Shown here: positions 57,778-61,026 of the stretch, piece after piece
Layout: each line of letters starts with the position of its first letter
How positions within the stretch are numbered: the stretch's first letter is position 1
Origin: Geovibrio thiophilus
GTDB taxonomy: Bacteria > Chrysiogenota > Deferribacteres > Deferribacterales > Geovibrionaceae
NCBI RefSeq assembly: GCF_004087915.1
Contig: NZ_CP035108.1
Coordinates: 2,666,001-2,730,000, forward strand
Reading direction: 5' to 3'
DNA length: 64,000 nt
Made by a program: the position numbers and the translations under genes
The notes under the pieces: generated by a model
What the model was told of the DNA's origin: nothing
Databases searched by the model: none
Seen by the model: only the letters and a program-made list of their open reading frames with translations

Positions 57778-58037
57778 CAGAGGTGGTACTTAAGCCCGTC
57801 GATGCGACTGATCATTTCATAAAAGCTTCTCAGCTCATTATAATTGCCCACTTCCACAGTGACGGATATAGACACGTACTTTCCGCTGCTGCTTTTTCTT
57901 TCCTGAATGTCAATAACCTCTTTCAGTACAAACACCGCCTTTACGCTGTCCCTGAAAGAATCCGTATCATCCCCCATCATCTTGTATGTGAATCTGGCGG
58001 GGTAGTCCATTTCCGTAAAACTATTCTGCTCGCTCAA
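57777..58037 (-). CDS. DUF493 (YbeD-like) small protein
   Basis: An 86-residue ACT-like alpha/beta protein. DYPARFTYKMMGDDTDSFRDSV, a VSISVTVEVGNYNELRSFYEMI segment and the C-terminal IDGLKYHL follow the DUF493/YbeD pattern; E. coli YbeD resembles the ACT fold and its role is unclear. The start lies inside the last codons of nfeD (17-base overlap), so it is translated from the same message. Confidence 0.88.
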   Translation of the reverse strand: MSEQNSFTEMDYPARFTYKMMGDDTDSFRDSVKAVFVLKEVIDIQERKSSSGKYVSISVTVEVGNYNELRSFYEMISRIDGLKYHL

Positions 58038-59253
58038 CTTTTATCACCATCCCCTTAATTTCCGCAATTTTTACTTTATCGTTTTTCTCAAAGGATGAGC
58101 CTGATTCAGCGTTCCATATCTCGCCGTGGACAAACACCTTGCCTGAGCTTCCGTTCCAAGACATGACAGTTCCCGCTTCGCCTATCATCCCTTCCGCTCC
58201 GGTAGCAGGCTTGGACAGAAAATCCTTAACAATGAGCCTGCCCAGAAGCCCCACAACAAGAAGAACCGCAGCCAGAACGCCTGCTATCATTCCCAATGAA
58301 ACACTTATGCCCACGTTCCCCTCCCTGCTGAAAAGCAGATACATTCCGAACCCAAGCGCCACCACTGCCCCCAGTGTCAGGAGCCCGAAGCTCGGGATAA
58401 AAACCTCCGCAACCATCAAAGCAAAGCCTGCGAAGATCAAGAGAAGCCCCAGCCAGTTTACGGGTATTATATTGATGCCCATGAGGAAAAGCAGTATGGC
58501 GCATATTCCGATCCCTGCGAAAACGAACGTTCCGGGCATCTTGAACTCAAGGAAAACAGCCCCTATCCCTATGAAAAGCATAAGCATCAGCACATTCGGG
58601 TCGCTGAGAAAAAACGCCACCTTTTGCAGGACAGTGGGCTCAAGGTATGTTCTCGCCGTCTGTTCGCCGTATTTTTCGGACAGAAGAGCCACGAGCCCGT
58701 CATCACTGTTCACCACAGTGTCTATAATATCAGCCTCAAGAGCTTCCTGTGAGGTGAGGCTGAGGGAATTTGTCACCATCTGCACAGATATATCAAGGTT
58801 TCTGCCCCTTTTCTCCGCAATGGAGCGCATGAAGGCGACCGTGTCGTTCTCAATCTTTTTGCCCAGCTCACCCTCAATATTCTGTCCGGTTATGTTCACC
58901 GGATGAGCGGCGCCTATATTGCTTCCCTCAGCCATGGCTGCGTAGTGGGAAGCGAGGGTTATGAATGTGCCCGCCGAGCCCGCTCTTGCCCCCTGCGGGG
59001 AAACAAACGTCACCACAGGGGTCTCGCTTTCGAGGATAAGCTGAACGATTTTTCTTGTGGAATCCAGAATGCCTCCCGGAGTATCAAGCTTTAACACCAG
59101 CACACCTTCTGCGGAGGAGGCTTTCTTCAGAGATTCTTCTATATATTTTTCGGTGTATCCGCTGATTACGCCGTTTATCTCAACGAAGAAATACTCCTTC
59201 GCGCCGGCGACGGAAAAGGCAAAAAGCATCAGGAAGGCAAGAAAAAATCTCAT
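58021..59253 (-). CDS. NfeD-family membrane-bound serine protease
   Basis: A 410-residue protein. The signal segment (LAFLMLFAFSVAGA) precedes a ClpP-class protease domain at about 20-215, with LDTPGGILDSTRKI, nucleophile Ser in ARAGSAGTFI near 91 and the Lys dyad region RNLDISVQM. Four to five transmembrane helices lie at about 225-345. A C-terminal OB-fold at about 350-410 contains GEAGTVMSWNGSSGKVFVHGEIW. This is the full-length NfeD (1510-N-like) type that cleaves stomatin-like proteins. No stomatin gene is adjacent here, which is unusual for the family. Confidence 0.92.
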   Translation of the reverse strand: MRFFLAFLMLFAFSVAGAKEYFFVEINGVISGYTEKYIEESLKKASSAEGVLVLKLDTPGGILDSTRKIVQLILESETPVVTFVSPQGARAGSAGTFITLASHYAAMAEGSNIGAAHPVNITGQNIEGELGKKIENDTVAFMRSIAEKRGRNLDISVQMVTNSLSLTSQEALEADIIDTVVNSDDGLVALLSEKYGEQTARTYLEPTVLQKVAFFLSDPNVLMLMLFIGIGAVFLEFKMPGTFVFAGIGICAILLFLMGINIIPVNWLGLLLIFAGFALMVAEVFIPSFGLLTLGAVVALGFGMYLLFSREGNVGISVSLGMIAGVLAAVLLVVGLLGRLIVKDFLSKPATGAEGMIGEAGTVMSWNGSSGKVFVHGEIWNAESGSSFEKNDKVKIAEIKGMVIKVERAE

Positions 59254-59270: not shown

Positions 59271-59939
59271 TTACTGTTTTATCATTCTGAAGAAGTATAC
59301 GCCCAGTTCCGGCGAAAACTTGCGGTAATATTTTGTTTCGTGGTAGTCCACAAGCTCGTTTATAAATACAGTATCGTACGCGCTCTTCAAATTTTCCACA
59401 GGTTTCAGGTTTTCCGCTATCTCTTCGGCATAGTCCGCCTGATCTGTCGCCATGTACAGACTGCCGCCCGTCTTAAGCTTGGATGTGAGAATCTCGATGA
59501 AGGATGTCTTCAGCAGCCTGCGCTTATTGTGCTTTTTCTTCGGCCACGGGTCGGGGAAATTCACGAAAAAGTTATCCACACAACCGTCCTCAAGGAGGCT
59601 TACGAAGAATGTGGCGTCGAAGTGAATTATCTTCGCGTTTTTCACTCCGGCAGTGCGCACCTTTCGGATTGCCCTGTCAAATATACGCTTCATTACCTCA
59701 AACCCGAGGTAGTTCTGCTCCGGATGCCTTCCGGCAAAGGCACTTATAAACTCGCCGTTGCCGATGCCTATCTCCACATTGAACGGGGCTCCGTTCGGGA
59801 AAAAATCTTCGGGAACGAATTTATCGTATCCTTCAAATTCGCCGCCGTGGGAAAATTTCTGAAATCTTTCGACCTGCGGACGCAGATCCTTGGCATATAT
59901 GTATATATCTTCCTGAAAATTAAGGTCTACTCTTTTAAT
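59271..59939 (-). CDS. trmB: tRNA (guanine-N7-)-methyltransferase, apparently starting at ATT
   Basis: A SAM-dependent Rossmann methyltransferase that makes m7G46 in tRNA. The SAM loop is VEIGIGNGEF, with FVNFPDPWPKKKHNKRRL the TrmB hallmark and MATDQADYAEEI later. A GTG at 59777 would remove the N-terminal 54 residues and place the SAM loop at the very start, which does not fit the family. The open frame continues upstream with coding-like sequence (DLNFQEDIYIYAKDLRPQVERF) to a stop, without any in-frame ATG, GTG or TTG. GGGAGG stands six bases before an in-frame ATT at 59937-59939, giving 223 codons, the normal TrmB length. CTG at 59885 is the other option. It is 17 bases upstream of nfeD. 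Confidence 0.85.
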   Translation of the reverse strand: MKRVDLNFQEDIYIYAKDLRPQVERFQKFSHGGEFEGYDKFVPEDFFPNGAPFNVEIGIGNGEFISAFAGRHPEQNYLGFEVMKRIFDRAIRKVRTAGVKNAKIIHFDATFFVSLLEDGCVDNFFVNFPDPWPKKKHNKRRLLKTSFIEILTSKLKTGGSLYMATDQADYAEEIAENLKPVENLKSAYDTVFINELVDYHETKYYRKFSPELGVYFFRMIKQ

Positions 59940-59974
59940 AACAAGCCTCCCTGACGTAAATAATATTTATTCAG

Positions 59975-60000
59975 CACAAACACCCCCGTTTAAGGGGGTG
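59975..60000 (-). terminator. Hairpin between DUF1858 and trmB
   Basis: CACCCCC and GGGGGTG around six bases, followed on the minus strand by TTTGTGC. It is about 43 bases after the DUF1858 stop, and the short T-run makes it moderate. Confidence 0.6.
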
Positions 60001-60042
60001 CGGCATTTCAGTCTGTATTATTTTTTTAAGTAATTGCGCTGA

Positions 60043-60249
60043 TCAGGCTTTGCAGTCCGCCACAAATTTTCTCAGCTCTGCCAGAACCTCATCGGGATCA
60101 AGACCGTGCATGCGTGAACCCTTTTCGATGCTCTCATTGGCAACACCCATGCAGCTCATGCAGCCCATGTTAAATTTATCAAAAACTTCCGCTGAAGAGG
60201 GACAGGCTTTCAATACATCCGCAATTATTGTTTTCGCTGTTATTTCCAT
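60043..60249 (-). CDS. DUF1858 small protein (hybrid-cluster-associated type)
   Basis: A 68-residue protein of the DUF1858 family: MEITAKTIIADVLKACPSS, then a CMSCMG motif with Cys pair near 31-34, and the helical tail LDPDEVLAELRKF. Such proteins occur mainly in anaerobes, alone or fused to redox enzymes, and may carry a redox-active disulfide. I start it at 60249, since GAGG precedes it; the ATG at 60264 would lie ahead of that site. It is a single-gene unit. Confidence 0.85.
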   Translation of the reverse strand: MEITAKTIIADVLKACPSSAEVFDKFNMGCMSCMGVANESIEKGSRMHGLDPDEVLAELRKFVADCKA

Positions 60250-60381
60250 AATATTTAACCTCATTGCTGATTTAAAATAAATACTGTTGTAAGCTCACGG
60301 CGCAGGGAATTATCCGGTTATATACCCGTCATGCTGAACGCAGTGAAGCATCCCTGACAGCGTTAATAAATCCCCCTCTGT

Positions 60382-60432
60382 CCCCCTTTAATAAAGGGGG
60401 AAGCCAACTCCCCCTCCTTTGGCAAAGGAGGG
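60382..60432. repeat. Paired palindromic C-rich/G-rich repeats
   Basis: Hairpins CCCCCTTT with AAAGGGGG (60382-60400) and CCCTCCTTT with AAAGGAGGG (60412-60432) are of the same module type as 11553-11590 and 47535-47616. They form the left end of a 450-base repeat island that fills the space before rpmB. Confidence 0.65.
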
Positions 60433-60446
60433 TTGGGGAGGATTTG

Positions 60447-60480
60447 TCTGAGACTCTTCGCCTGAGGCTCAGAGTGACGT
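60447..60480 (+). repeat. Short hairpin repeat word
   Basis: TCTGAGACTCTTCGCCTGAG is followed by GCTCAGAGTGACG. CTGAG and CTCAG pair. In the opposite orientation the same word lies at about 45752-45780. It is a frequent type of bacterial intergenic repeat. Confidence 0.5.
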
Positions 60481-60494
60481 CAGTCAGTAAGTCC

Positions 60495-60577
60495 CGGCGC
60501 GCTCCCTTCCGTGGGAGCGTTTACTGCTTCCACGAAAAAAAGCTTGTCGGAGAGCTTTTATTCAAAAAAACTCTTGA
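60495..60577 (+). repeat. 83-base direct repeat, unit 1
   Basis: Identical over 83 bases to 60659-60741. It begins with hairpin 1 of the three-hairpin repeat (CGCTCCC/GGGAGCG) and continues with unique sequence containing AAGCTTGTCGGAGAGCTT. The two units bracket the body of copy 8, as if a segment next to that repeat was duplicated. Confidence 0.85.
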
Positions 60578-60588
60578 ACCGACTTACA

Positions 60589-60683
60589 AGGAGAACAACC
60601 ACTTCCTGTGTTGTTCTCCTACACGCTCGCGGGCGGATGAACCGCCCTTCGCTTCGCACGGCGCGCTCCCTTCCGTGGGAGCG
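60589..60683 (-). repeat. Three-hairpin dispersed repeat, copy 8
   Basis: On the minus strand hairpin 1 has stem CGCTCCC/GGGAGCG with loop ACGGAA. The linker GCCGTGCGAAGCGAAG follows, then hairpin 2 with stem GGGCGG/CCGCCC. A GCGAGCGTGT linker leads to hairpin 3 with stem AGGAGAACAAC/GTTGTTCTCCT, 11 perfect pairs, around ACAGGAAGTG. All three stems differ from the other copies while loops and linkers are conserved. Confidence 0.85.
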
Positions 60684-60741
60684 TTTACTGCTTCCACGAA
60701 AAAAAGCTTGTCGGAGAGCTTTTATTCAAAAAAACTCTTGA
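60659..60741 (+). repeat. 83-base direct repeat, unit 2
   Basis: Exact copy of 60495-60577, offset by 164 bases. Perfect identity implies a recent duplication or ongoing gene-conversion-like exchange. Unit 2 contains hairpin 1 of copy 8. Confidence 0.85.
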
Positions 60742-60837
60742 TCGGTTATATAGGTTATGTTAGCATTTCAAGCTCTTTAGATCAAGACTATTGAACAGTG
60801 TAAAGGTTTAGAATTATCATACATTCGGAGGATTAAC

Positions 60838-61026
60838 ATGGCCAGAAGATGTGAGGTTTGCGGTAAAGGACCGATGTTCGGTCACAACATAAGCCACGCT
60901 CACAACGTTACAAGAAGGGTTTTCCTTCCTAACGTGCACAAGATGAGAGTTGTTGAAGACGGACAGGTTGTCAGAAAGAAAGTCTGCACAAAATGCCTTA
61001 AAGCAGGCAAAGTTCAGAAAGCCTAA
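60838..61026 (+). CDS. rpmB: Ribosomal protein bL28
   Basis: A 62-residue large-subunit ribosomal protein. [20 protein letters not shown] has the first Cys pair, and [11 protein letters not shown] the second, so this is the zinc-binding (C+) form of L28, which matters for zinc homeostasis in the family. GGAGG precedes the ATG, and a strong terminator follows. A possible promoter (TTGAAC at 60791, TATCAT at 60815, 18-base spacing) sits just after the repeat island. Confidence 0.97.

Follow-up and report, generated by a model that had tools for sequence, protein, structure and literature searches.

Bacterial genes known to start at an AUN codon are few, and the classic case among them is infC, the gene for initiation factor IF3, which is autoregulated and starts at AUU or AUA, as described for E. 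coli and, with AUA, for S. aureus (PMC13009471). IF3 itself discriminates against the AUU start of its own gene (PMC9410913). The cost of such starts has been estimated with reporters: in S. aureus, AUU or AUA preceded by a strong Shine-Dalgarno (SD) sequence yields about 10% of the expression obtained from AUG (PMC13009471), and in Listeria the order of activity is ATG > ATA > ATT (PMC13068326). Further examples include E. coli pcnB, where the AUU start limits expression (Binns and Masters 2002, cited in PMC13009471 and PMC9410913); Borrelia burgdorferi pncA/BBE22, where the AUU precedes the first annotated start by a good distance and the longer form is real (PMC13398362); and S. aureus cvfC1 (AUU) and ccpN (AUA), whose starts have been mapped by Ribo-Ret (PMC13009471).

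The trmB gene of Geovibrio thiophilus shares traits with each of these systems. Like infC, it combines a strong SD sequence with an AUN start that is conserved across species; unlike infC, its product is not the factor that discriminates, so that any control would be exerted in trans and with no feedback loop, and its codon is AUU, whereas infC in these genomes has AUA. With pcnB it shares the AUU start and an RNA-acting product, of a kind thought in the pcnB case to be kept at a low level, but the enzyme and the phylum are different, and pcnB has been studied experimentally whereas the evidence for trmB is comparative. As in pncA/BBE22, the AUU lies so far upstream that database entries truncate the enzyme, although the Borrelia start has experimental and structural support and the trmB start is drawn from sequence comparison. 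The conserved non-canonical start with an extended SD sequence also recalls cvfC1 and ccpN, which differ in gene function and in having Ribo-Ret-mapped starts. An AUU start for trmB, or work on start codons in Geovibrio, was not found in the open-licence literature, which was searched partly by title. Since conserved AUU starts are already known (infC, pcnB, cvfC1 and B. burgdorferi pncA), trmB seems to add a new example to an existing class.

The trmB frame and its proposed start codon

The window (the whole 64,000-nucleotide stretch of the G. thiophilus genome analysed here) carries trmB on its minus strand, with the following elements:

59271..59939, minus strand: trmB, tRNA (guanosine(46)-N7)-methyltransferase, 222 codons from ATT, recognized by TIGR00091, PF02390 and N-terminal constraint
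59937..59939, minus strand: proposed start codon ATT (AUU), identical in all four genomes of two genera (g1 and g3, below)
59946..59951, minus strand: Shine-Dalgarno sequence GGGAGG, six-base spacer to ATT, duplex energy -11.1 kcal/mol
59967..59969, minus strand: in-frame stop TAA, 5' of the trmB start
59775..59777, minus strand: first in-frame canonical codon, GTG, 54 codons into the gene; rejected as start

The product is identified as TrmB by its family profiles, from which its role as a methyltransferase is assigned: it scores 135.5 bits with TIGR00091 against a cut-off of 112.65, which places it in that family, and 142.3 bits with PF02390 against a 24-bit cut-off, where it is the sole match above cut-off in the genome. 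The initial annotation had described a coding frame that runs about 54 residues above its first GTG and a GGGAGG placed six bases before an in-frame ATT; both the coordinates and the reading were confirmed (59951-59946 for GGGAGG, then ATT at 59939-59937). Reading from the TAA at 59969, the frame contains no ATG, GTG or TTG before the GTG at 59777 is reached, and the nine codons that separate TAA from ATT are no exception. Thus, trmB lacks a usable ATG, GTG or TTG start and instead has an AUN codon that follows a strong SD sequence. The GTG itself lies within the residues VEIGIGNG, which we take to be the SAM-binding segment of TrmB.

Conservation and constraint at the start region

Start regions were compared in 12 genomes of the family: three from the window's own genus (g1, comprising the window genome G000 together with G004 and G005), one from genus g3 (G006), and eight from g2 and g4, of which the former contains Denitrovibrio and the latter Seleniivibrio. 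Conservation of ATT in close relatives had been named in advance as a check on the initial reading, and it held: ATT AAA, preceded by a strong SD sequence, occupies the aligned position in 4/4 genomes of g1 and g3, these being its only carriers and the three g1 sequences being close to one another. The four proteins are 70-89% identical. The arrangement reads GGGAGG-N6-ATT in g1 and GGAGGAAGGAGCT-ATT in g3, the exact six-base spacing being confined to g1. Judged by this alignment, the position of the AUN codon is shared with other species. All eight genomes of g2 and g4 instead start trmB at an ATG, four or five codons upstream of the place aligned with ATT. Across the wider phylum, trmB was matched in 46 of 50 genomes and read at 30 loci, among which ATT occurs in 4 and a canonical codon in 26; the 18 loci from outside the family all show an in-frame ATG at the N-terminus or, in one (G019), a GTG.

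The retention of ATT together with a strong SD sequence in all four genomes is beyond chance, given that ATT accounts for 25% (110/445) of isoleucine codons in 12 genes of the window. The motif by itself is no proof, since GGAGGN6ATTAAA occurs once in the genome and its reversed control twice; it is the positional conservation that is decisive.

The pattern of substitution in the six pairs formed by the four genomes points to the same codon. Each pair differs in codons 1-54 by 13 to 20 synonymous changes and by 12 to 22 nonsynonymous ones; in the nine codons that precede ATT, nonsynonymous differences number 4 to 9 per pair and synonymous ones are absent. Translation therefore spans the N-terminal 54 codons, and the substitutions give no sign that it extends above ATT; on this evidence, coding constraint starts at the AUN codon.

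The same position is favoured by SD strength. Duplex energies, calculated with a canonical anti-SD sequence, are -11.1 kcal/mol at the ATT of G000, -12.3 in G004, -10.3 in G005 and -9.3 in G006, in each case the best value among the ATG, GTG, TTG, CTG and ATN codons listed. For reference, 14 other genes of the window score between -2.3 and -13.3, and 4.75% of random 17-mers (n=2000) reach -9 kcal/mol. ATT is rivalled most closely by an ATA in G006, at codon 4 (-8.0 kcal/mol), which draws on the same SD sequence; the corresponding codon is TTA in G004 and G005 and GTA in G000. In-frame TTG codons occur at codon -6 of G004 (-0.9 kcal/mol) and codon -5 of G006 (-3.3), and a GTG at codon 23 of G005 (-0.6) and G006 (-7.1). 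The comparison thus shows AUU to be the one candidate start that all four genomes share and that has a good SD sequence, as well as the point where constraint begins.

Against these observations, other placements of the start can be weighed. That a base-call or assembly error conceals an ATG, a possibility raised at the outset, is hardly credible: any single assembly can have single-base errors, and trmB at one control locus (L081) does show apparent homopolymer damage, but the same ATT stands behind its SD sequence in four separate assemblies, one of them a single-contig genome. A start further downstream, at GTG 59777, at CTG 59885 or at an N-terminal ATA, with the upstream part left untranslated, has the attraction that GTG is a canonical start and that the protein still scores 130.5 bits with TIGR00091 without its first 54 residues. 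It is nevertheless very improbable, as the synonymous changes in codons 1-54 mark that part as translated, the GTG is replaced by GTT in G005 and G006, the CTG is replaced by ATA in G005 and pairs poorly in all four genomes, and the SD sequences of these codons are weaker than that of ATT; the two alternatives named initially, GTG and CTG, fail on these grounds. Somewhat less remote, if still improbable, is entry from above, either at another non-canonical or lineage-specific TTG or GTG codon or by frameshifting from a short upstream frame. The in-frame TTG codons of G004 and G006 and an in-frame GTG above the SD sequence in G005 speak for the former; for the latter, an out-of-frame ATG leader in G006 (MFGGRSY) stops at a TAA that shares bases with ATTAA, and a TTG frame in G000 ends at a TAG shortly after ATT. 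No such candidate, however, is common to the four genomes, none of those scored has an SD sequence as good as that of ATT, and synonymous changes are absent above ATT in all six pairs.

Neighbourhood, history and rarity

The genes that flank trmB, and the sequence between, are as follows:

60043..60249, minus strand: small gene upstream of trmB, in the same place in g3 and the outgroup genus g8; presumably DUF1858-like, judged by its sequence
58021..59253, minus strand: gene downstream, adjoining trmB in all 12 family genomes; presumably NfeD-like
59983..59997, minus strand: terminator-like hairpin CCCCTTAAACGGGGG in the gap that separates trmB from the upstream gene, within the stretch CACCCCCTTAAACGGGGGTG (59980-60000), about 30 bases above the SD sequence

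The small upstream gene has no match in the eight genomes of g2 and g4. In g8, the same gene precedes a trmB that starts at ATG; a rearrangement that removed the old ATG was therefore rejected, and, because the small gene adjoins trmB in g1, g3 and g8, the ATT is not due to a new upstream neighbour. An IF3 tree separates g1 and g3 from g2 and g4 with support of 100/99 (its midpoint root serves for drawing only), so that the sisterhood of g1 and g3 is supported as an unrooted split; a TrmB tree leaves the position of G006 unresolved and does not contradict that split. The simplest history is that ATG gave way to ATT once, in an ancestor common to g1 and g3, although the change may instead have occurred in the family ancestor and been reversed in g2 and g4.

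The hairpin may serve the upstream gene as a terminator, or may be an attenuator; similar stretches with altered loops occur in the three g1 genomes, and none in g3. Folding of the trmB start region gave no structure better than shuffled sequences over 76 nt (z +1.06), and z -1.10 over 131 nt. A promoter scan of 59600-60600 returned a single sigma-70-like match on the minus strand, upstream of the neighbouring gene and at chance level. Further along, between the small gene and a gene at 60838, the ORF translations of 60444-60794 (plus strand) contain peptide words twice, an indication of a short DNA repeat in two near-copies.

How rare such a gene might be was surveyed over 224 kb of G000, some 7.5% of its genome, compared with the syntenic regions of three relatives. 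Of 217 stop-to-stop ORFs with relatives, 126 aligned for at least four codons above their first canonical codon, most of these extensions being explained by closeness of the genomes or by overlapping ORFs. Ten candidates, trmB included, were chosen by eye for lack of overlap and a long extension, a choice that was not blind. Eight were set aside because their extensions differ from each relative by 0 to 3 synonymous changes (the most, at 2674238, being 3 in one relative), too few to argue for coding; a good SD sequence precedes the canonical start in several of them. A ninth, at 2591414, has 4 and 8 synonymous changes, but we read it as lying antisense to a minus-strand gene, at the 3' end of that gene. 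This leaves trmB as the sole ORF found with homology and a synonymous pattern far above its first canonical codon that is not otherwise explained, and a smaller survey of the window (52 ORFs) gave the same answer.

As a control on trmB elsewhere, 76 of 77 loci were examined (L103 starts too late), and 74 have some ATG, GTG or TTG at least 20 codons above residue 55, a loose criterion that is passed even by L027, which is expected to carry ATT. A motif-based variant of this control recognized 12 of the 77 loci and was set aside. One locus that lacks such a codon, L081 from a Pelagibacteraceae metagenome-assembled genome (MAG), looks like a homopolymer frameshift. In L091, from a single Clostridium MAG (upstream of 3001), trmB has 58 open codons without a canonical codon and an ATA about where related clostridia have ATG; this is possibly an independent non-canonical trmB start.

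Probable initiation on AUU and the supply of TrmB

The same genomes also use an AUN codon in infC. In all 12 family genomes (loci L015-L026), infC starts at AUA behind GGAGG-N6, in the form GGAGGTGA-NNN-ATA, with zero canonical codons between the preceding stop and ATA. An IF3 match was obtained in 47 of 50 phylum genomes, and infC starts were read at 38 loci: beyond the family, AUA follows an SD sequence at 24 of 26 further Deferribacterota loci (L170-L195; read from printed codons), seven of which have ATC-ATA and one of which (G034) also has an in-frame ATG five codons above, while the remaining two have ATC (G037) and ATT (G012). At the level of sequence, then, AUN initiation behind GGAGG is an established practice of the phylum.

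Taken as a whole, the account that we regard as very probable is that trmB in g1 and g3 is translated from AUU behind a strong SD sequence, with an output that we infer to be low and sensitive to IF3. The initiator fMet-tRNA would act on the AUU with the aid of strong SD pairing; IF3 would discriminate against this codon and reduce initiation to a fraction of the efficiency of AUG; and the level of TrmB would accordingly be low, and would rise, in the manner of infC, when IF3 is in short supply compared with 30S subunits. The suggestion that initiation fidelity limits TrmB is plausible, and the AUA-started infC of the same genomes fits it. A low, initiation-limited supply of TrmB is likely in view of the published reporter results with AUU and AUA, and a supply tuned by IF3 is possible. 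A wider proposal, that trmB and the AUA-started infC form one IF3-sensing regulon in g1 and g3, in which m7G46 methylation rises at a low ratio of IF3 to 30S subunits, seems to us unlikely.

A competing explanation accepts the AUU start and disputes the regulatory part alone, holding that the loss of ATG was simply tolerated and offset by the strong SD sequence. In its favour, TrmB is probably required by cells in small amounts, and none of the comparisons made here shows regulation of trmB. On the other hand, AUU has been retained across two genera and up to 30% protein divergence, though a single change would restore ATG. We give this explanation a substantial chance, somewhat short of even.

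Gene callers limited to ATG, GTG and TTG would truncate TrmB inside its SAM-binding segment. The shift from AUG to AUU, set beside sister genera in which trmB starts at AUG, provides a clean natural contrast in which to ask what leads a gene to adopt a start codon against which IF3 discriminates.
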